Source of the DNA: Candidatus Nitrosopumilus sp.
GTDB lineage: Archaea; Thermoproteota; Nitrososphaeria; Nitrososphaerales; Nitrosopumilaceae
Direction: 5' to 3'
DNA length: 57,288 bases
Assembly (NCBI GenBank): GCA_024644105.1
Contig: JAHELP010000002.1
Location: forward strand, 1 to 57,288
Positions 1 to 34,473 of this stretch are shown in pieces. A program made the translations under genes and the position numbers. Within the stretch, counting starts at the first letter, position 1, and each line of letters begins with the position of its first letter. The notes under the pieces were generated by a model. It was not told the DNA's origin, ran no database searches, and saw only the letters and a program-made list of their open reading frames with translations.

Positions 1-437
1 AAATTTCAGATTGGTATGGAAAATATTTTGTTGCCACACTACGTGGAAATCATTTAAGAGTGTTAGATTTGGATTTGGGAAATAATCAAGTGCTTGACAG
101 TAAAGCATTACTTGTTGGAGAATACGGCAGATTACGTAATGTCAGTGTGGGTCCTGATGGTAATTTGTATATTCTAACTAGTAATCAAGATGGCAGAGGA
201 GCCCCTGTATCAAATGACGATAGAATTTTACGAATTACTCCATTAGAAAACAATGTGCAAACAGAAAATATTGTTCTTTCACCCCTAAAGCAGGTACAAT
301 TAGGAATCTCACCCCAAAATGTTTCATGTAATGATGGATTGAGTCTTGTCATCAAGGCAAGTAATCAAATGCCTGCATGTGTTAAAGATGCATCAGTACA
401 GAAACTAGTAGAAATTGGATGGGCAATTAACAATTAA
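1..437 (+). CDS. PQQ-dependent sugar dehydrogenase-type protein, C-terminal part (5' end outside window)
   Basis: The frame is open from base 3 to the stop at 435-437, so only about the last 144 residues are present. The fragment reads through WYGKYFVATLRG and HLRVLDLD, then LRNVSVGPDGNLYILTSN and RILRITP. These are the last beta-propeller blades of the glucose/sorbosone dehydrogenase (GSDH) family, which oxidise sugars with pyrroloquinoline quinone and are usually secreted. About 60 residues after the propeller, with two cysteines, form a C-terminal extension typical of extracytoplasmic thaumarchaeal homologues. Substrate cannot be inferred. The signal peptide, if any, lies upstream of the window. 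Confidence 0.8.
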   Translation, partial: ISDWYGKYFVATLRGNHLRVLDLDLGNNQVLDSKALLVGEYGRLRNVSVGPDGNLYILTSNQDGRGAPVSNDDRILRITPLENNVQTENIVLSPLKQVQLGISPQNVSCNDGLSLVIKASNQMPACVKDASVQKLVEIGWAINN

Positions 438-482
438 TTTAATTCTGTTGAATTGTATTAAGATATCAAATACGAATTGATA

Positions 483-890
483 TTATTTTTGAGATTTTAT
501 AAAATCGACAATAGATAATATTTTACCCATGTCAGCAAGATGACCATAACTTTTTCTTCTATTAATATTGGTTTTAGTTAGCGGAGTATTACTCATAGTA
601 CAAAATAATAATTTGCCATTATCCAAAGGAATAGAAATTCTTTTTATTTTCTCATATGATGATATTGAATATAATCCTGAACCTAGGTAGTTTTTTGCAT
701 TTGCATTTTCTTTCCATCCATGTAGAGCTCTCATCATAGTTTGTTTTGTTTCTGAAGGTGAAACAAGATTTTTCAATCCATCTCTTTGACTATTCCATAA
801 TATTTGACCATCACTGTCAGCAACTGCTGCAAATCTGACATCTTCATTAAAATCCATAATCATGTTGAGGAGTTTTTCGTATTTGTCCAC
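483..890 (-). CDS. Small roadblock/profilin-like protein, paralogue 1 (possible DUF6659 family)
   Basis: This 135-residue soluble protein has no transmembrane segment. An N-terminal helix (YEKLLNMIMDF) is followed by a strand pattern resembling roadblock/LC7 or PAS-like folds (FAAVADSDGQILW) and a later strand pair (KRISIPLDNGKLLF). It ends with a conserved SYGHLADMGKILSIVDF segment that its neighbour shares. I associate this kind of sequence with a thaumarchaeal domain of unknown function (DUF6659), from memory only. The start is GTG at 890. A TATA-like stretch around 912-922 lies 27 nt upstream, which suits a leaderless mRNA. It lies tail to head behind a paralogue at 998-1402, on the same strand. 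Function unknown; a sensory or ligand-binding role is a guess. Confidence 0.7.
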   Translation of the reverse strand: MDKYEKLLNMIMDFNEDVRFAAVADSDGQILWNSQRDGLKNLVSPSETKQTMMRALHGWKENANAKNYLGSGLYSISSYEKIKRISIPLDNGKLLFCTMSNTPLTKTNINRRKSYGHLADMGKILSIVDFIKSQK

Positions 891-997
891 AGTTTCTATG
901 GTAAATTTGTGTTAATAAATATTACAAAAAAAGGTACTAGTGTTAAATACAATCTAAAATCATTTAATTTGATATTGAAAATAACAGAGTCCTTTGT

Positions 998-1402
998 CTA
1001 TTCAAAAGTATTTACAAAATCAACTATGGACAATATTTTTCCCATTTCAACTAATTTTCCATAGCTTTTCTTCTTTGTATTTTTCATAGGAGTGTTATCT
1101 ACGCTCATAAACAATAGATGGAATGCATCAATTGGAAGTGTGACTCTTTTTGTTTTCTCAAAAGATGTAATGTGGTAAAGTGGAGCGCCAAGTGCATTAC
1201 GATCAGCAGCTTTGCACCTATCAACCCAATCATCAGATTCACGTTTTAGTGCTTTTTTGGTTTCAGCCAGTGGGACCTGAAGTTTTGCATCTTTTCTTTT
1301 AGAATTCCATAAAATGTCTCCAGAGGTGTTACTAATCACTGCAAGTCTAATGGATTCATCATAATCCATTAACATGTTTAGAACTTTCTCATATCGTCCC
1401 AT
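998..1402 (-). CDS. Small roadblock/profilin-like protein, paralogue 2
   Basis: This 134-residue paralogue matches the protein at 483-890 along its whole length (YEKVLNMLMDYDESIRLAVIS, GDILWNSKR, KSYGKLVEMGKILSIVDF), so the pair arose by tandem duplication. A longer reading frame begins at GTG 1423. I prefer ATG 1402 because MGRYEKVL aligns with the paralogue's first residues and an AT-rich TATA-like element centred near 1429 lies 27 nt upstream. It is transcribed divergently from the DICT-domain gene at 1501, across about 100 bp. No catalytic motif is visible. Confidence 0.7.
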   Translation of the reverse strand: MGRYEKVLNMLMDYDESIRLAVISNTSGDILWNSKRKDAKLQVPLAETKKALKRESDDWVDRCKAADRNALGAPLYHITSFEKTKRVTLPIDAFHLLFMSVDNTPMKNTKKKSYGKLVEMGKILSIVDFVNTFE

Positions 1403-1500
1403 GGAATAAGTAGTATTGTACACAATAAAAACAATTTGTCAAAGTCTTAATTTCATAAATTTAAGATTAACTTATATCTGATTTTGGATTTAACAAATCT

Positions 1501-2046
1501 ATGGTCGGACCATATGCTGGATTTGTAGGCGAAGTTTGGGAGGAATTTCCTCAGCTTGCTGAATGGCATGATGATGACCCAGCACAGCTTCAAATGTGGA
1601 ATATGGAAAAATTTATCGAAGCAGGATATCATAATTTTCATGCTGAAAGAAAACAGCTATACCATATCAGTAAATTGATTGAAAAGCATGCTCAGGATAA
1701 TGCTCAGCCACTACTTGCAACTTTTGAAGAAATTGCTAGATACAAATTTGTTGAAAAGAGATATCAGAAGCTAATTGAGAAAATTCCAAAAATTTGGGTC
1801 ATTGCAGATTATGGGAAAACCAAGTTACAGACACCAGATAAAATCAACATAATTAATTGTAAAAATACTCACCTATCCAACGTTTGGAGTGTAATTACCA
1901 GAGGCCCATATGGACCATTTGGATTGATTGCCGAAGAATATGAAGATGGGAAATTCAGGGGATTTTTTACTCTAAATCCAAATGTCACAAGACATGTTCT
2001 TACTGTGATGGGTAAAACACTAGGTACTAAATTTAATATTCAATAA
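1501..2046 (+). CDS. DICT-like sensory domain protein, paralogue 1
   Basis: This protein has 181 residues and no membrane segment. The central part (ERKQLYHISKLIEKHA, PLLATFEEIARYKFVEKRY, KIWVIAD) follows the pattern of the DICT domain found in bacterial diguanylate cyclases and two-component proteins: 'L..lS..lE......a.l...Fq...fy...e.rY..L......v.v'. The C-terminal half (VWSVITRGPYGPFGLIAEE, FRGFFTLNP) fits the rest of that domain. It appears as a stand-alone domain with no kinase or cyclase output. A TATA box around 1470-1477 lies 28 nt before ATG 1501, so the mRNA is probably leaderless. A paralogue follows at 2120 behind its own promoter. The ligand is unknown. Confidence 0.65.
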   Translation: MVGPYAGFVGEVWEEFPQLAEWHDDDPAQLQMWNMEKFIEAGYHNFHAERKQLYHISKLIEKHAQDNAQPLLATFEEIARYKFVEKRYQKLIEKIPKIWVIADYGKTKLQTPDKINIINCKNTHLSNVWSVITRGPYGPFGLIAEEYEDGKFRGFFTLNPNVTRHVLTVMGKTLGTKFNIQ

Positions 2047-2119
2047 TATAAAACAAAAATAATTAGCACTAGTTATTTAATTTATCACTAGTTATATATC
2101 AAAAACACAATAGAACCTT

Positions 2120-2671
2120 ATGAGTCAACAATACAGTAGTTTCATACAAGAGATATGGTCAAATTTTTCAGGATTAGCAGATACAAAAATTACTGATCTG
2201 ACTGATCACAATGTCTTATGGAGATTAAGTGAATACATTGATGCAGGTTATGTCAATTTCAAAGAAGGAAGAAAAGAGCTATACCGATTAAGTATTCTAC
2301 TAGAAAACTATGCAGTAAAATATAATGCACCTCTCTTGGCAACATTTGAAACAAGTGAGAGATACAAGTATGTCAAAGATCATTATACAGAAATTCTACA
2401 AAAAATTCCAAAGTCTTGGATAATTGGAAATTTCAATAACCCTTTACTTGCTCCGCAGCCTCCAGAATCTGCTGAAGTAATTAGTTGTGATGGCACAAAC
2501 ATTTCAGATATGTGGATTGTTGTAACAAGAGGTCCCGAGGGTCCATTTGGTCTTGTTGCAGAAAATATTGGAAATGACGAGTACCTAGGTTTCTTTTCAT
2601 ATAGCCCTACTGTGATTTCAAAAGTAATTCAAAGAATAAATGAAAAATTGAAAATACAGATAGAAATTTAG
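2120..2671 (+). CDS. DICT-like sensory domain protein, paralogue 2
   Basis: This 183-residue tandem paralogue of 1501-2046 shares the same blocks (ELYRLSILLENYA, PLLATFETSERYKYVKDHY, KSWIIGNF, MWIVVTRGPEGPFGLVAE). Its own TATA box (about 2092-2099) sits 25 nt before ATG 2120. The two copies may therefore be transcribed independently, which would allow different expression of similar sensors. The stop codon interlocks with the stop of a small convergent gene (2668-2796). The DICT assignment rests on pattern similarity only. Confidence 0.65.
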   Translation: MSQQYSSFIQEIWSNFSGLADTKITDLTDHNVLWRLSEYIDAGYVNFKEGRKELYRLSILLENYAVKYNAPLLATFETSERYKYVKDHYTEILQKIPKSWIIGNFNNPLLAPQPPESAEVISCDGTNISDMWIVVTRGPEGPFGLVAENIGNDEYLGFFSYSPTVISKVIQRINEKLKIQIEI

Positions 2672-2796
2672 TCAGAATATTCTCTTTTTCTTCTATATGC
2701 TCCACATTTAGGACATGGCTTTTTTTTATCTCCAGGTATTGTAAGTTCCAGTGGAGTTTGACAATCAAGGCAGAATTCTTTTATATTTTCTGACAT
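2668..2796 (-). CDS. Small zinc-ribbon protein
   Basis: The product is 42 residues, with CLDC and CPKC pairs about 20 residues apart (EFCLDCQTPLE, KKPCPKCGAYRRKRE). This is a minimal four-cysteine zinc ribbon with a basic tail. ATG 2796 is the only usable start in frame. A TATA-like element (about 2826-2836 on the minus strand) lies far enough upstream for a start at or near the ATG. It converges on the DICT gene, and their stop codons share bases 2669-2670. Function unknown; a nucleic-acid or protein-binding adaptor is plausible. Confidence 0.6.
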   Translation of the reverse strand: MSENIKEFCLDCQTPLELTIPGDKKKPCPKCGAYRRKREYSD

Positions 2797-2901
2797 GCGT
2801 TTTATGATTTCTTGTGCACTTAAGGATATGTAAAGTATAGTTAATCAAAATTGGTTAAACTCAACATATGATATAGAATGTATTCAGAGAAAGTAGTAGA
2901 T

Positions 2902-3321
2902 TTATGAGTAATATTGCTTAAACCCTTTATCAGTTGGATAAAGTTCTGTTTTGGGACCGAGTATTCCTTGTTTTTGAATGACTTTGAGTAATCCATTTTT
3001 CTCCAAATCTTCCAAGATAGAATCAAGTTCCTGACTATCTAGCCCAGTATTTTTCTGAATACTCTCAAAGGTTTTTGATCCTCTGTTTAATGCACCTAAA
3101 ACAAGATCATTTTTAGATTGAGGTTTTGAAGAATCTATCTCTTGTGTTTCAGTGACATTGAGTTTGTTTTCAGTAAAACCTGATTGAAAGTCATTTTGTG
3201 GTGGGGGTTGAGAAAAGTTTTGTCCTATTCCTCTTTTTTTCAATATACGTGGAATAATTCTAGCTAGTGGAATTGCCAAGAAAATTACCAAATAAATCCA
3301 GGCAAAATTAGGTTCAGCCAT
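2902..3321 (-). CDS. Membrane-anchored winged-helix protein
   Basis: This protein has 139 residues. An N-terminal hydrophobic segment (about residues 5-24, FAWIYLVIFLAIPLARII) is followed by a basic patch and a polar Pro/Gln/Ser linker to about residue 70. The C-terminal 65 residues look like a winged helix (LVLGALNRGSKTFESIQKN, LDSILEDLEKNGLLKVI, ELYPTDKGFKQYY). The layout suggests a membrane-tethered DNA-binding or protein-binding wHTH facing the cytoplasm. ATG 3321 lies about 24 nt after a TATA-like element (3341-3350). Target and signal unknown. Confidence 0.7.
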   Translation of the reverse strand: MAEPNFAWIYLVIFLAIPLARIIPRILKKRGIGQNFSQPPPQNDFQSGFTENKLNVTETQEIDSSKPQSKNDLVLGALNRGSKTFESIQKNTGLDSQELDSILEDLEKNGLLKVIQKQGILGPKTELYPTDKGFKQYYS

Positions 3322-3401
3322 TACTAATTGAACATAGAGATAGCATAAATTTGTTGAGAAAAATAAACTCTAATCTCTGAACATGCACCACATTAGATTG
3401 G

Positions 3402-3409
3402 TATAAAAG
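3402..3409 (+). promoter_or_regulatory. TATA box of the SPFH/prohibitin gene
   Basis: TATAAAAG is centred 28 nt before TTG 3433. The spacing places transcription initiation at or next to that TTG, which supports the longer start over the internal ATG 3469. Confidence 0.6.
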
Positions 3410-3432
3410 TAGAAGATAGCATACTGTATACG

Positions 3433-4296
3433 TTGTCAAAGTATCAATCACCTAAAGTTAAGGTAAACATGAGTGCAGCAAAAGGAGTTGCAGTCGCGAT
3501 TGTTATTTTAATAATTATTGGTGTTATAGCATCAGCTTCTGTGAAAATTGTTGATTCTGGTCATAGAGGAGTATTATTGCATTGGGATGCAGTCGATCTT
3601 TCAAATCCACCACTTGAAGAAGGAATACATTTTGTTGTCCCTTTCCAAGATGAGGTAGTCAACATTGAGGTTCGTACTCTAAAATATGCAAGTGAAGCAA
3701 GAAGTGCATCAAGAGATCTGCAAACCGTAGAAACTACAGTTACAGTCAATTATCATCCAAATAAGGAACAAGTTCATACATTATACAAGAATTTAGGCTT
3801 AGATTATGAGAACAGGGTTATTCAACCAGCAATAGAAGAAACTGTAAAACAAGTAACTGCAAATTATAATGCTGAAGAATTAATTACAAAAAGACCTCTT
3901 GTAAAACAAGATATAGAATTTTCCATAAGAGAGAGATTAAATCAATTCAATGTTGTAACAGAAGTTATTTCAATTACTGATTTTGAATTCTCTGCATTAT
4001 TTGCATCTGCAATTGAATCCAAAGTAGAAGCAGAACAAAATGCACTTAGAGCAGAAAATGATTTGAAAAGAATTGAAGTTGAAGCTAGGCAAGCAGAGGC
4101 CAACGCCATAGGTGTAGCAAATGCAAACATTGCAGAAGCTAGAGGTGAGGCAGAGGCAATTGCCATAATTAACAAAGCATTAGCTGAAAATCCAAATTAT
4201 TTAGATTGGCTAAAAACACAGGCATGGGATGGAAAACTACCTCTAGTAGTTGGTGAAGGTGGAACTCCATTTATACAAATTCCAGTTAGACCTTAA
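3433..4296 (+). CDS. SPFH domain protein, prohibitin-like
   Basis: This protein has 287 residues. An N-terminal membrane anchor (about residues 18-38) is followed by the prohibitin/SPFH core (VDSGHRGVLLHWDAVD, EGIHFVVPFQDEV, NYHPNKEQVHTLYKNLG, VIQPAIEETVKQVTANY, AEELITKR). A long Ala/Glu-rich coiled coil (about 190-255) carries the prohibitin hallmark AEARGEAEAIAIINKAL. Prohibitins form large membrane rings that scaffold or regulate proteases; that role is known for the family, not shown here. TTG 3433 is preferred because of the TATA box 28 nt upstream. It converges on a small membrane protein 14 bp downstream. Confidence 0.88.
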   Translation: MSKYQSPKVKVNMSAAKGVAVAIVILIIIGVIASASVKIVDSGHRGVLLHWDAVDLSNPPLEEGIHFVVPFQDEVVNIEVRTLKYASEARSASRDLQTVETTVTVNYHPNKEQVHTLYKNLGLDYENRVIQPAIEETVKQVTANYNAEELITKRPLVKQDIEFSIRERLNQFNVVTEVISITDFEFSALFASAIESKVEAEQNALRAENDLKRIEVEARQAEANAIGVANANIAEARGEAEAIAIINKALAENPNYLDWLKTQAWDGKLPLVVGEGGTPFIQIPVRP

Positions 4297-4310
4297 GTGA
4301 TTTAAAAAAT

Positions 4311-4610
4311 CTAATCTCTATCTTTAAGCTGCTCTCTAATTGCATCATACATTACAAGAAATTGTTCTGGTTCATTTTGCCTGTAATTTTTTTCAAGATT
4401 TTGAATTTCTTGATGTGTAATTTTTTCTCCTTTATTTTCATAATATTCCTTAATTATTTGAGCAGGAGTTTTTTTGATATTATATTTTCTAAGAGATTGA
4501 TTAACAGATCTTTTACAGTACAAATCATAAATCAAAAAGCGATAGGCAAGGTATCCAGATAATCCAACGATTGCAACAACAAGGATTGGGATGATGATGA
4601 TTGATGCCAT
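4311..4610 (-). CDS. Small single-pass membrane protein
   Basis: This 99-residue protein has an N-terminal transmembrane helix (about residues 3-28, IIIIPILVVAIVGLSGYLAY). A charged helical cytoplasmic domain follows (TPAQIIKEYYENKGEKITHQEIQ, EQFLVMYDAIREQLKDRD). There are no cysteine or catalytic motifs. It converges on the SPFH gene, so a shared pathway is possible but unproven. I do not recognise the family. Confidence 0.65.
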   Translation of the reverse strand: MASIIIIPILVVAIVGLSGYLAYRFLIYDLYCKRSVNQSLRKYNIKKTPAQIIKEYYENKGEKITHQEIQNLEKNYRQNEPEQFLVMYDAIREQLKDRD

Positions 4611-4772
4611 ATTATACTGTAGGTGTTTTCAGTATTTCATTGTTATTCTTTTATCTAAATTTGAGATAATGTGTGAATTGTGGATAATTTGAGCCTAGCA
4701 AAGTCACAAAACTAGATAAAAAATAAGAAAATATCTCTAGTTTCTTTAAGGAGAAACGTCAATTTAATAGAA

Positions 4773-5249
4773 TTGAAATCAAATGATAAAAGATGGATCA
4801 TTCTTGCCATGGTAGCAGGGATTGCTGGATTAGCTATTACAGTTGGTTTTGTTGGACAAGGAAATGTAAGACATGTTGAAATTTTTTGGGCAGAAACAGT
4901 AGAACAAACTATAGTTTTTGAAGAAGTCAATGGAGAAACGCAAGTAAGAGGAGTTAAAGGGGTAAGCGGAGATGCAAATCCAACATTATTATCACGTACA
5001 TCATTTGCATACATTCTAACTGTAATTAACAATGGTACAACACAGCATAGACTATACATTGATGGATTCAATGTTCAAACAGAATTATTAGAACCGGGTC
5101 AACAAGACACAATCACAATCTACCCAGATAAAGAAGGTGAATTCACATACTATGACAAGAGGCAAAATTTAGTCCCATTAGGTAAAATCAAAATTGTTTC
5201 AGTGGTTCCAAGTGATGAGTTTCAAGGAATTTGGAAAGATTTGATTTAG
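4773..5249 (+). CDS. Membrane-anchored cupredoxin-like fold protein without obvious copper ligands
   Basis: This protein has 158 residues, with an N-terminal anchor (about 9-29, IILAMVAGIAGLAITVGFVG) and an all-beta extracytoplasmic domain. The later part (QHRLYIDGFNVQTELLEPGQ, TITIYPDKEGEFTYYD) has the strand order of cupredoxin-like domains. The Cys and Met ligands of type-1 copper sites are absent and only one His is in a plausible place, so copper binding is doubtful. TTG 4773 is 25 nt after a TATA-like TCTTTAAGG. The cupredoxin-like fold is an inference from pattern. Confidence 0.65.
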   Translation: MKSNDKRWIILAMVAGIAGLAITVGFVGQGNVRHVEIFWAETVEQTIVFEEVNGETQVRGVKGVSGDANPTLLSRTSFAYILTVINNGTTQHRLYIDGFNVQTELLEPGQQDTITIYPDKEGEFTYYDKRQNLVPLGKIKIVSVVPSDEFQGIWKDLI

Positions 5250-5261
5250 TTTGTCATACTG

Positions 5262-5420
5262 TTGTTTATTAGTTGGAAAAAATCAGCATCATCTGTGACT
5301 AATGTAGACGAACTTTATCAAAAAGAGATGGAGGAGTTAATGAATGAGATTAACAGTAAAACAAAGTCATGGTTCAAGAAATTAAAGGAACAGTCAAAGA
5401 ACACCAAAGTTGATATGTAA
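5262..5420 (+). CDS. Short helical protein
   Basis: An in-frame open stretch just after the cupredoxin-like gene gives 52 residues from TTG 5262 (or fewer from GTG 5295). The product is almost entirely charged helix (VDELYQKEMEELMNEINSKT, SWFKKLKEQSKNTKVDM), with heptad-like spacing suggesting a coiled coil. No separate promoter is obvious, so it would be co-transcribed with 4773-5249. The coherent amphipathic pattern favours a real gene, but it is short and I do not recognise it. Confidence 0.45.
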   Translation: MFISWKKSASSVTNVDELYQKEMEELMNEINSKTKSWFKKLKEQSKNTKVDM

Positions 5421-5436
5421 ATCAGTTAACACGATT

Positions 5437-6309
5437 CTATTTTTCAGCATATATCAAATCAACTTTATAATTTAATGTAGCACGTGGATTAAGTTTTAAA
5501 ATCCAAGGAATGTAAGAGGGAGTTTTAGTTTTTGATGTTATTTTAAATCCCAATTTCTCCAAATTTGTGCGTAATGTTTTTTCATCAAGTGGATTTTTTA
5601 CAGAATTAGTCCCTCTATCAAAATCATATGGATCACTGATTATAAAATGACCACAGGTAATTTGTTTTGAAACATGATTTAAAAATTTAGCAGGTTCGAC
5701 TAATTCTAAAACATTCAAAGCTAAAACAAGATCAAACTTAGATTTACCAAATACAGGAGACAAAAAATCAGCTGCGACGTATTCAAGATTATCTTTGTAA
5801 GATTTTTTTGCAATTCTTAAAGCAGAAAATGACCTATCTATTCCAAAAACCATATCATGAGATTCAGCCAAAAAGGAAGTAAGCAGCCCAATTGAGCATC
5901 CATATTCTAAAGCAAGTTTTGATTTTTTTAACAAACCAATATTTTTTTTTATTTCAGAATAGAATTTTGAAGATTTACTATTTTGATATATTCTTGACCA
6001 TCGTTCTTCAAGAGCAGTTCGATCATCATTTGATTTATGAGCTTTTGATATAGAACTCTTACAAAATTTCTTCAAATTTTGATTCTCAATTAATTGATAA
6101 AGTTTGCCTCCCAATTTTTTACGTGATGAAAGATAGATAGAAAAATCATCCCACAATATTGGGATTTTCTCAATAATTGGAAATTGTTTATGACATTTTT
6201 TACATTCTAAAATTCCTTCAATAATTTCTTTAGATTGTTTGAATGTGGTTAATTCTAATTTAGAACTACAGTTTACACATCTTAAAAATTCAAGACTAGA
6301 TTCAAACAT
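5437..6309 (-). CDS. SAM-dependent methyltransferase with N-terminal Trm112-like zinc ribbon
   Basis: This protein has 290 residues. Residues about 9-52 form a Trm112-like/zinc-ribbon module (CVNC, then CKKCHKQFPIIEKIPILW). A class I methyltransferase core follows, with motif I ALEYGCSIGLLTSFLAE, an acidic motif II end (VFGIDRSFSALRIA), AADFLSP, and motif IV DLVLALNVLEL. Free-standing Trm112 activates several archaeal methyltransferases; here a similar module is fused in cis. The substrate is not evident and could be a small molecule, a lipid or RNA. It is a single-gene unit on the minus strand. Confidence 0.75.
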   Translation of the reverse strand: MFESSLEFLRCVNCSSKLELTTFKQSKEIIEGILECKKCHKQFPIIEKIPILWDDFSIYLSSRKKLGGKLYQLIENQNLKKFCKSSISKAHKSNDDRTALEERWSRIYQNSKSSKFYSEIKKNIGLLKKSKLALEYGCSIGLLTSFLAESHDMVFGIDRSFSALRIAKKSYKDNLEYVAADFLSPVFGKSKFDLVLALNVLELVEPAKFLNHVSKQITCGHFIISDPYDFDRGTNSVKNPLDEKTLRTNLEKLGFKITSKTKTPSYIPWILKLNPRATLNYKVDLIYAEK

Positions 6310-16338: not shown

Positions 16339-18063
16339 CTACCAGTACTTTGCTTTAACAGTCTCGATAACTTTTTCGTGTTCCCTACTCTTTCTACGTG
16401 CATATTTCTCCATAGCACCAAGAGGTACACCGCCAAGAGATCGTGCAATTGCATTAAAGAAGTATCTTTGTGGGCCTTTTGAACCAGTCTTAGTCATGAA
16501 TTTTTGAATACCATATTTGAAATTGTGTTGCCATGTCTTGTAAAGAACACCAAGCTGTGCAGGAGTCATTTCATTTCCAATATGGAAGAAATCTGATTTT
16601 TCTAGCAATCCTATTGGAACAAATGTTAGTGCTGTAGCAGTAAACATTGAATCAGGTTGCTCTCGTTCTAATTCACTTAGTAATTGAATAGTTTCCCAAG
16701 AATCTTCAGGGGTTTCATCGTTATCAAGACCCATAATTAGTGTGAATGCAGGAATCCAATAATCCTGGTTCAAAGTTTTAACACCTTCTTTTACAACCCA
16801 GTGCCATTCAGATGGATCATAAGGAGCAAGTTTTCTATCAGCATATTTACCGATTAATCTAAGACTTCCAGTTTCAAATCCAGCTTGAATACCTATCATG
16901 TTATCTGGACTTGCTTTCATAATTCTAGATAGATTAGGAATTAATTTTTCATCTGCAATTGCACCTGCCAGTGTACCGTGAGTTGGATTTGTATGCTCAA
17001 CACCTGTAGACATGATAGCAGTAAACAATTCCTCTAATGCTTCTCTATTTGGTTCCATTCCTTTTGCAGTTCTTGGATCCATGCCATAGACAAAGATATC
17101 ATCACTGTGAATCCATGCAGATTTAGAACCACCTTTCTTAATGTTAACTTCAATTTCTTTTTTGACTTTTTCTGGTGAATAATATCTTAAAGATCTTAAT
17201 GTTACATCACAGAATTTACATCCCCTTCCACAACCTCGCATTACTTCAACCATTCCATGCATACTTGGTTCTACAATGTCAGGAATTTCTTCTAGTTCTG
17301 GTCTATCCCAGAAATTTACAAATCTTCCGTGAATTTTTTTTCCTTCTCTTTCAAATTCTTTAATGTTAACTTTAAAGTCACTTCTCTTTCTGAAAGGATC
17401 CATGTTTTCAAAATCACCATTAATCAAATAGTTAAAGAATCGTCCTGCATGTCCATCAATTTCAGGTGCGATACCACCAAGTTCTCCTTCAAGAATTGCA
17501 TAGATTCCAAATTCTTCAATTTTTGCAGGATCGTAATTATATTGCCAGGTTCCAGATGCACCAGAAATTACTTTGGCTTTACTTCCGGTTTTTGCTTTTG
17601 CAGCTTTTATTCTGTGATGTAATTCAGCATTGTAAAATTCATCATACGAAGTCTGTTTTCTTCCATAAGTAAATGTCATAGTTACCGGACCCATTCCAAG
17701 TGGATCCATTTCATAAGTTCCAATAACCTCAGTATCAGGTCCAATAAATTGTTCAATGTGATCAGGATGAGCAACGACAACATCTTGTCTACTAAATCCA
17801 TCGCGAAGCAAACCTGCTTCTAATTTTCTCAATCCGTATGGAGCATAATTTGCTACACCGTTGGTATGAGGAATATAATTACAAATGAAATCAAATAGAA
17901 TCTTTGGAGTTACTTGATTTCCAAGAATTTTATACCAAAAACTCTTTTTGTCTCGATTAGGGTCAAGTGCTGGAGCACATCCAAAAAATGTTGCAAGAGA
18001 CAGTCCCCTATAAGGAGACATTAAAGTTCTATCAGCGGTTAATACTATTTTTGGATTACCCAT
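16339..18063 (-). CDS. B12-binding-type radical SAM protein
   Basis: This protein has about 574 residues. The N-terminal about 250 residues look like the cobalamin-binding/UPF0313-like part (IVLTADRTLMSPYRGLSLATF, RQDVVVAHPDHIEQFIG, AILEGELGGIAPE). The radical-SAM cluster RGCGRGCKFCDVT follows, then a TIM-barrel region (AWIHSDDIFVYGMD, GIQAGFETGSLRLIG). The reaction is unknown; relatives perform methylations and ring modifications. ATG 18063 is used, although in-frame GTG 18072 and TTG 18075 are close and a TATA-like TTTAAAATA at 18091-18098 permits any of them. A single-gene unit followed by pyrK. Confidence 0.8.
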   Translation of the reverse strand: MGNPKIVLTADRTLMSPYRGLSLATFFGCAPALDPNRDKKSFWYKILGNQVTPKILFDFICNYIPHTNGVANYAPYGLRKLEAGLLRDGFSRQDVVVAHPDHIEQFIGPDTEVIGTYEMDPLGMGPVTMTFTYGRKQTSYDEFYNAELHHRIKAAKAKTGSKAKVISGASGTWQYNYDPAKIEEFGIYAILEGELGGIAPEIDGHAGRFFNYLINGDFENMDPFRKRSDFKVNIKEFEREGKKIHGRFVNFWDRPELEEIPDIVEPSMHGMVEVMRGCGRGCKFCDVTLRSLRYYSPEKVKKEIEVNIKKGGSKSAWIHSDDIFVYGMDPRTAKGMEPNREALEELFTAIMSTGVEHTNPTHGTLAGAIADEKLIPNLSRIMKASPDNMIGIQAGFETGSLRLIGKYADRKLAPYDPSEWHWVVKEGVKTLNQDYWIPAFTLIMGLDNDETPEDSWETIQLLSELEREQPDSMFTATALTFVPIGLLEKSDFFHIGNEMTPAQLGVLYKTWQHNFKYGIQKFMTKTGSKGPQRYFFNAIARSLGGVPLGAMEKYARRKSREHEKVIETVKAKYW

Positions 18064-33351: not shown

Positions 33352-34473
33352 CTAGAGACTTTTTGCTAATTCTAATTTTTGCGGTAAATATTTGTCAGTA
33401 ATATTTGTTAATCCATATTTTGAAAATGCTTCCAATTCAGCTTTTCTCTTTAATCTTAAAAAGACATCTAGTTCTTTTTTCCAAATTCCATCTTGATATC
33501 TAGGATCTTTTTGCAAATCATAACATCGTTTGATATCAGATTCAGTCATCGGAATTGTTGGTAACTTGTATTTTTCAATATCAGTAGCCCATACACCAAC
33601 CCATTTTGCATCAGGTACTGTTAATTCTCTTAGATGAGCAGCATTTGCTGAACCAGATTTAATTACCATGGCAATATGCTCTCCATACACATCACCGTCT
33701 GTTAAAACGATAACAGGTAGTTTCATTTCTTCATGTAATCTTTTTAACAAAGTTCTAGTTGAACGAGGAGCTTGTCCTCCTGTATTGATGATTATTGATT
33801 TGAATTTTTTGTCAATTTGTTCCTCAACAAATCTTGTAAAGAGTCCACCTTTTTCAATTGCAATAACAATTTCTGCACTAGTATCAACTAATTCAGCAGT
33901 TGTTAAACTAGGACCTATAGAGTAACCATCAGGATGATTTGAAAGATTCATAGTTTTTCCTTCATATCCAGGTATAGTATATTCTATATTCAAATCCCCA
34001 AAGATTGAGCTTCTTTCTTCGGGAAAGATATGAAAGTCTTCTCTAGGTTTTGAAGTTACAGCCTCTAAATCCACAATAATGTTATCGGATTCAGATTGAT
34101 CTTCAAACTCAATTGCGAAAGCCTGTGAAGAATAATAAACATCTCTTAAAGTGGAGGATTTTTTTTCATGTGTTAATCTATTTGCAAAAAATGCCAGCCA
34201 CATCAATTGTGTGAAAGATCTTAATTGTGCAGAATTTCTCGAACTTCTTACAGCAGCATTATTTCCTAAAATGTATTGTCTAAGTTTTTTATCATATACA
34301 ATATTACTTACAGATCTGCTTGGGATAGAAAATTTCGGGAATTGCCCATTATCTAAATCATCATAGATAGTTGCACCATGACTTTTAAGCATCTCAAGGA
34401 TATTCTTTTGTTTTTCATCAGCTTTTTTACTTCGTTCTTTAATTCTTGTTTGTTCTTTTTTACTTGTTTTCAA
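33352..34473 (-). CDS. top6A: DNA topoisomerase VI subunit A
   Basis: This protein has 373 residues, a Spo11-type subunit. The 5Y-CAP domain has the catalytic tyrosine in LRDVYYSSQ (residues 113/114). The TOPRIM domain has IAIEKGGLF (Glu) and VIVLTDGDVYGEH (DxD), and WVGVWATDIEKY is near the end. It makes the double-strand break in type IIB topoisomerisation. It overlaps top6B by 14 nt and ends the operon rio1-pno1-top6B-top6A. Its stop abuts that of the convergent Hsp20-like gene. Confidence 0.96.
   Translation of the reverse strand: MKTSKKEQTRIKERSKKADEKQKNILEMLKSHGATIYDDLDNGQFPKFSIPSRSVSNIVYDKKLRQYILGNNAAVRSSRNSAQLRSFTQLMWLAFFANRLTHEKKSSTLRDVYYSSQAFAIEFEDQSESDNIIVDLEAVTSKPREDFHIFPEERSSIFGDLNIEYTIPGYEGKTMNLSNHPDGYSIGPSLTTAELVDTSAEIVIAIEKGGLFTRFVEEQIDKKFKSIIINTGGQAPRSTRTLLKRLHEEMKLPVIVLTDGDVYGEHIAMVIKSGSANAAHLRELTVPDAKWVGVWATDIEKYKLPTIPMTESDIKRCYDLQKDPRYQDGIWKKELDVFLRLKRKAELEAFSKYGLTNITDKYLPQKLELAKSL

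Follow-up and report, generated by a model that had tools for sequence, protein, structure and literature searches.

The window analyzed here, meaning the whole stretch of 57,288 nucleotides, belongs to a Nitrosopumilus-type MAG of 1.285 Mb in 95 contigs (the window genome). Near its left end lie two pairs of small genes, R1 and R2 on the reverse strand and D1 and D2 on the forward strand. All four open reading frames reported by the initial annotation were found again at the same positions. The features are as follows, with "box" denoting the sequence TTRGCACTAG:

483–890, reverse strand: R1, Roadblock-like, 135 aa, GTG start; paralogue of R2 by homology
937–946, reverse strand: box near R1 with one mismatch, TTAACACTAG, 56 bp upstream of R1
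998–1402, reverse strand: R2, Roadblock-like, 134 aa, ATG at 1402 (open reading frame opens at GTG 1423)
1403–1500, no strand: divergent R2–D1 intergenic region, without a box in the window and with boxes in relatives
1501–2046, forward strand: D1, weakly DICT-like, 181 aa, with a predicted TrmB-effector/PLD-like fold
2063–2072, forward strand: exact box, TTAGCACTAG, 57 bp upstream of D2
2082–2091, forward strand: second box near D2 with one mismatch, TTATCACTAG, 38 bp upstream of D2
2120–2671, forward strand: D2, DICT-like as a paralogue of D1, 183 aa, with no Pfam match of its own

The ATG at 1402 is the most likely start of R2, as judged from its conservation among R2 relatives, and the gap between R2 and D1 is therefore 98 bp. 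R1 and R2 share 46% identity over 135 aa, and D1 and D2 share 38% over 183 aa; no relation between the R and D proteins was detected (hhalign, 1.1%). Both kinds of protein look soluble and single-domain, with low hydropathy, and neither a P-loop (0 of 98 R and D sequences) nor the HKD motif of phospholipase D (PLD) enzymes (HxKxxxxD; 0 of 48 D sequences) is present, which upholds the initial description of stand-alone domains without an output. Positions 1–6000 hold no known RNA element at the gathering threshold, and a PADLOC scan for anti-phage defence gave nothing noteworthy, its best match being a type I specificity model at E 0.02. A sigma-70-type promoter scan, which is not apt for archaea, found 21 sites against 13.5 expected.

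Structure prediction covered R2 and D1; the fold of R1, and of R3, a related gene at other loci, was assigned by homology. The AlphaFold2 model of R2 (pLDDT 84, alignment of 34 sequences) has the element order H E E H E E E H, which is the α-β-β-α-β-β-β-α order of the Roadblock/LC7 fold. Its top Foldseek match is an Asgard Roadblock protein (9jue, E 1.1e-6), and VIA-align superposes it on 7yh1 with Z 14.5 (112 aligned residues, rmsd 2.4) and on MglB in complex with MglA (3t12) with Z 14.0. R2 is thus predicted to adopt a Roadblock/LC7 fold akin to that of MglB and the Asgard Roadblocks. The R proteins differ from those systems in that the Pfam model Robl_LC7 (PF03259) matches neither the four proteins, nor the R alignment, nor the genome, and in that no MglA-like GTPase was found. 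Searches with R sequences returned no solved structure.

By profile, the R proteins resemble DUF6659 proteins. The R alignment matches six DUF6659 proteins of the same genome (hhalign, 97.8%, E 1.2e-12), and because of this match R1 and R2 look like a divergent branch beside a lineage-expanded DUF6659-type family. Individual sequences fall below the DUF6659 cut-off (PF20364): R1 scores 13.3 bits against 27, and 4 of 34 R sequences match at E ≤ 0.1. The profile similarity between DUF6659 and the Roadblock-fold R proteins makes a Roadblock-like fold probable for the entire DUF6659 family. The family is expanded in this small genome, with nine matches (L084–L092, genome G000) beside five matches to R2. 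In the open-licence literature we found no paper on DUF6659 and, by title, none on Roadblock proteins of Nitrosopumilus-type archaea.

The D proteins are harder to place by sequence. D1 lies below the cut-off of the Pfam DICT model (PF10069; 18 against 23.8 bits, E 0.0029), and 14 of 36 members of its family match that model at E ≤ 0.1, the best with E 0.0003. Solved structures are matched by D sequences only at E 0.5 or worse, and Foldseek with the AlphaFold2 model of D1 (pLDDT 87) returned nothing at E ≤ 0.001. In the VIA-align ranking, however, the sugar-binding domain of TrmB (2f5t) stands first, with TrmBL2 and PLD-fold proteins below it; residues 42–180 of D1 superpose on 2f5t with Z 12.0 and rmsd 2.7 over 125 residues. 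This suggests that D1 is a weakly DICT-like protein with the fold of the TrmB C-terminal effector-binding domain and of PLD. Unlike TrmB, D1 carries no DNA-binding domain (Pfam detects no TrmB-type winged helix in the D proteins, which are about 181–183 aa long); unlike the PLD enzymes, the D sequences have no HKD motif, and the identity to 2f5t is 8%. A DICT domain of Microcystis is fused to an output as DICT-HD-GYP (PMC7063779), whereas the D proteins stand alone.

A scan of genome contigs found 27 loci, some of them cut by contig ends. R2 and D1 stand head to head in 26 of these, with R1 in 23 of the 26 and D2 in 19. One other genome (G150) has an R pair with a partial second member and no D1, the absence of which is probably due to a contig end. 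Among 300 genomes of the class, 45 have D-family genes, and a head-to-head R–D pair with a gap of 88–112 bp accounts for 31 D genes in 30 genomes (pairing by coordinates, with R genes of at least 168 bits plus one partial R gene). Chance alone falls far short of explaining this arrangement. R2 and D1 form the constant pair among the four genes, which partly bears out the earlier idea that the two families work in pairs. R1 lies in tandem in 28 of the 30 block genomes. The window is atypical in its tandem D1 and D2, which are found on the same strand with a gap below 100 bp in 5 of the 30; in 9 of the 26 loci, D1, a photolyase gene and D2 follow each other on one strand, with gaps of 20–34 and 63–75 bp. 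Co-occurrence of the two families at large holds in part: 30 genomes share the R2–D1 block, but 15 of the 45 D genomes lack it and 13 genomes have R3 without D.

The initial annotation had also proposed that both partners were duplicated in parallel, which the trees do not bear out. They were built from 50 R and 48 D sequences; six related loci were excluded as redundant, and the removal of rows shorter than 100 aa took out, among others, R2 of L015 (through a start-codon artefact) and the cut D1 of L027. R1 and R2 fall into separate clades (96/96 and 100/100), and the R3 genes of other loci fall between them, attached weakly near R2. D1 forms a single clade (94/100), and D2 is mixed among the D genes of other loci (D3), which means that D1 and D2 did not arise as sisters in a recent tandem duplication. 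Co-duplication of the two pairs was therefore set aside as unsupported, and the picture that the trees suggest is one of older families brought together rather than of two recent tandem duplications. Lone R3 genes, close to R1 and R2, also occur at unrelated loci (L064–L071), in genomes mostly without D.

Clustering of the neighbors of the R2–D1 block revealed a recurrent set of genes in changing order, which we call the island. Its photolyase matches both Pfam domains (E 1.4e-78 and 7e-37), and the other Pfam names comprise a B12-binding_2 plus B12-binding protein (the B12 protein), an NmrA-like short-chain dehydrogenase (SDR), an amino-oxidase/CrtI-like FAD enzyme, a PNPOx-like protein, TFB, a WelO5-like oxygenase, TudS-DUF1722, MEDS, HTH_45 and TspO. 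For eight of the 20 island proteins scanned, Pfam gives nothing at E ≤ 0.01. The names CHMI, SRPBCC and "MEMB" used for some members are presumptive, and clusters designated c are numbers only. At least one other island gene is present in 24 of the 26 R2–D1 loci, and photolyase in 18 of the 26. At the eight contrast loci with R3 (L064–L071), one TFB and three c11 matches (45–46 bits) were seen and no other island gene. Photolyase loci of genomes lacking D also have the island (L099 and L103), which therefore does not require R and D. No other island genes were found within the 57-kb window; in the window genome they are distributed over several contigs (C10, C15, C46, C54 and C74; L093 and L166–L168), many of them preceded by a box.

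Several arrangements within the islands were noted in passing. Four loci (L016, L018, L021 and L024) have a second B12-protein paralogue beside MEDS-domain and HTH_45 genes, downstream of D2. A Pfam-less protein of about 95 aa is directly followed by the WelO5-halogenase-like oxygenase in what appears as a two-gene unit (L012, 15800–16875; L008, 4077–5134; L168). Island L008 also contains a TudS-DUF1722 (RudS-type) gene at 16951–17916, as in bacterial light-responsive operons.

The B12 protein has features of a photoreceptor. In four aligned sequences, W128-x9-E138H139 and E173xH175xxG178 are invariant; motifs of this form, W-x9-EH and D/ExHx2G, mark the AdoCbl photoreceptor CarH (PMC9304148). 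No MerR domain was found on it, the Pfam matches being B12-binding_2 and B12-binding only (L002, 8047–8889). B12-binding_2 was dropped as a stand-alone marker, the listed matches being mostly open frames of 800-plus residues, and the distribution of the protein was instead followed with an alignment of the island protein at E ≤ 1e-40. By this measure it is present in 110 of the 300 genomes, among them 44 of the 45 with D (Fisher 2.8e-21); photolyase is present in 39, of which 28 also have D (Fisher 4.5e-19). Within the window's genus (72 genomes), 27 have D and the B12 protein, 1 has D only, 18 have the B12 protein only and 26 have neither (Fisher 8e-7); for photolyase, 17 have both, 11 have D only, none has photolyase only and 44 have neither (Fisher 1.6e-9). 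All of these Fisher values ignore kinship and overstate independence, because the genomes are related. D and the B12 gene share a contig in 26 genomes, within 10 kb in 19 and at 74 bp in five, where a gene of the D3 clade directly follows the B12 gene; of the 28 genomes with D and photolyase, 19 have the two on one contig, and in 18 of these they lie no more than 10 kb apart. The B12 protein is found in only 5 of the 13 genomes with R3 but no D. Photolyase went undetected in 9 of the 30 block genomes and in 73 of the 110 genomes with the B12 protein.

The island genes are further connected by the box. Word counts in loci L001–L026 found TAGTGCCAA in 54 of 223 island upstream regions against 9 of 232 others and TAGTGCTAA in 42 against 11, counts that are not independent because many upstream regions are shared or homologous. 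Over the 377,660 bp of the 26 loci, the shorter pattern TTRGCACTA has 120 sites and its reversal 4. To check the full TTRGCACTAG beyond the discovery set, it was counted in the window genome and in genome G066; these have 15 and 13 exact sites, and the reversed pattern has 4 and 1 there. No more than 200 bp upstream of an island, R-family or D-family gene lie 8 of the 15 and 9 of the 13, where the binomial expectation, with about 20 island, R and D genes in the window genome (14 and 25 were first assumed), is less than 0.1 site; the other 11 of these 28 boxes precede no known island gene. In 18 further genomes there are 178 exact sites against 30 for the reversed pattern, and of 30 sites sampled there (one or two per genome, lowest coordinates first) only 7 are upstream of an island gene.

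In the window genome, genes with an exact box are D2, photolyase (C10), TFB and CHMI (C54), c5/c15 (C54, two sites), c11 (C15) and the c7–c4/PPOX region (C46); the shorter TTRGCACTA adds the CrtI-like and B12 genes (C54) and c13 (C46). Boxes are most often 55–59 bp from the start codon, where 67 of 127 same-strand boxes lie. D2 has a same-strand box ahead of it in 20 of 24 matches and R1 in 12 of 29. R2 and D1 have no box in the window, and the R2–D1 region carries boxes in relatives such as L016–L025. At 33875, 47151 and 50773 the window has three more GCACTAGT sites, which are inside open reading frames and not upstream of this gene set, and the full 16-bp palindrome of the box has one match in the window, with three mismatches and not upstream of the R or D genes. 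In family f3, which belongs to the same order, the D homologues (L079–L081) have no boxes nearby. Two further genes (L133 and L109; C73 and C8 of the window genome), which we take to be UbiX-like and fumarase/aspartase-like, have boxes at −61 and −67 and are possible additional members of the regulon.

As to what reads the box, the R and D proteins were ruled out, since islands without them (L099 and L103) carry boxes. Among the 18 further genomes, the two that lack the B12 protein, G042 and G123, have the fewest sites, 2 and 4, compared with 6 to 13 in the 16 that have it. For this reason the leading candidate for the reader is the B12 protein or a factor that accompanies it.

This gene set is reminiscent of bacterial light-response loci. 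The LitR (pmlR1) region of Pseudomonas comprises phrB, a short-chain dehydrogenase, an FAD-dependent oxidoreductase and ufaM (PMC9758184), and the archaeal islands likewise cluster photolyase, an SDR, an FAD oxidoreductase and a cobalamin-binding regulator-like protein. RudS (TudS-DUF1722) genes are often located in light-responsive operons (PMC11417400), and one archaeal island has such a gene. Together with the CarH motifs, these likenesses lead us to read the archaeal set as a light or photodamage regulon. It differs from LitR/CarH in that the archaeal B12 protein has no MerR domain by Pfam and a different N terminus of about 75 aa, and in the addition of TFB paralogues, the TTRGCACTAG box, a WelO5-like oxygenase and the DICT-like and Roadblock-fold proteins. 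On the present comparison of genomes, we consider it probable that the R1, R2, D1 and D2 proteins have an accessory signalling role in this regulon, an archaeal counterpart of LitR/CarH. Membership of the R and D genes in the regulon is well supported; that its signal is light is what we infer, and the molecular step at which they act is a guess. The initial suggestion of an unrecognised sensory module thereby gains a context, namely an island with a putative B12 photoreceptor and photolyase and a regulon defined by the box.

The same regulon could answer to another signal, such as oxidative or redox stress or cobalamin status, with photolyase as one target of several and light not sensed directly. 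Many of its members are of redox or flavin type (CrtI-like, SDR and PPOX-like), and the frequent presence of the B12 protein in genomes without photolyase would fit such a signal; the combination of photolyase with a Wx9EH B12 module nevertheless points to light, as does the fact that every photolyase genome of the genus has D, and we regard a different signal as rather unlikely. It is more doubtful still that the four genes are passengers, small unrelated genes carried along by a variable genomic island without any part in the response. They are indeed patchy (45 of 300 genomes), and in the window and two of the 26 loci the block has no other island gene nearby. Yet the order of the block is kept while its neighbors are reshuffled, same-strand boxes recur ahead of D2 and R1 in the proportions given above, and the D2 box is retained in the window genome despite its scattered island.

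A third reading takes R1 and R2 for regulators of the MglB type that act on a small Ras-like GTPase to which D provides the input, as in MglAB or the actinobacterial conservons. Coupling of MglA and MglB has been described (PMC4316618), and MglA-bound MglB is among the closest folds to R2. A search of 10 genomes with the Roc model (PF08477), however, gave only matches inside open frames of about 595 residues and weak partial matches in 199-residue frames, and thus no MglA-like gene by this one model; nor was there a GTPase among the island genes scanned. Because no GTPase partner was found, an MglAB-like switch is argued against, and we rejected this kind of regulation as very improbable.

In the light regulon that we favor, light acting on the cobalamin protein, photodamage, or both would switch on the genes preceded by TTRGCACTAG, D2 and R1 included, with the box sitting just upstream of the TATA region of these genes. 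The D proteins may serve as receptor domains for a small ligand or a partner, their fold being TrmB-effector-like and devoid of a DNA-binding part, and a Roadblock dimer of R1 and R2 might dock D1 onto the box-reading factor or TFB and so tune the response; these two steps are the least certain. A more far-reaching version, which we put forward only tentatively, is a light regulon whose members are dispersed and defined by the box, run by a cobalamin photoreceptor that works together with TFB paralogues and binds DNA through an archaeal part other than MerR; in it, the R1/R2 dimer and the TrmB-fold DICT proteins would form a new signal-relay complex that links the state of the photoreceptor with transcription and needs no kinase, cyclase or GTPase.

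Light is considered one of the factors by which ammonia-oxidising archaea are segregated with depth in the ocean, and the photolyase of surface marine Thaumarchaeota is known and cited as UV protection (PMC10232715). In the open-licence literature we found no description of light sensing or light-response control, of this regulon, of the box or of the B12 protein in these archaea. The present analysis provides functional context for these archaeal Roadblock-fold and DICT-like proteins. Now that a gene set has been named, the box has been seen in the genome of the window itself and a B12 photoreceptor has been put forward as a candidate, the question of light becomes testable in cultured Nitrosopumilus. 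If the proposal is true, light-sensitive nitrifiers would have a testable light-response system built around a B12 light sensor and a DNA-repairing photolyase.
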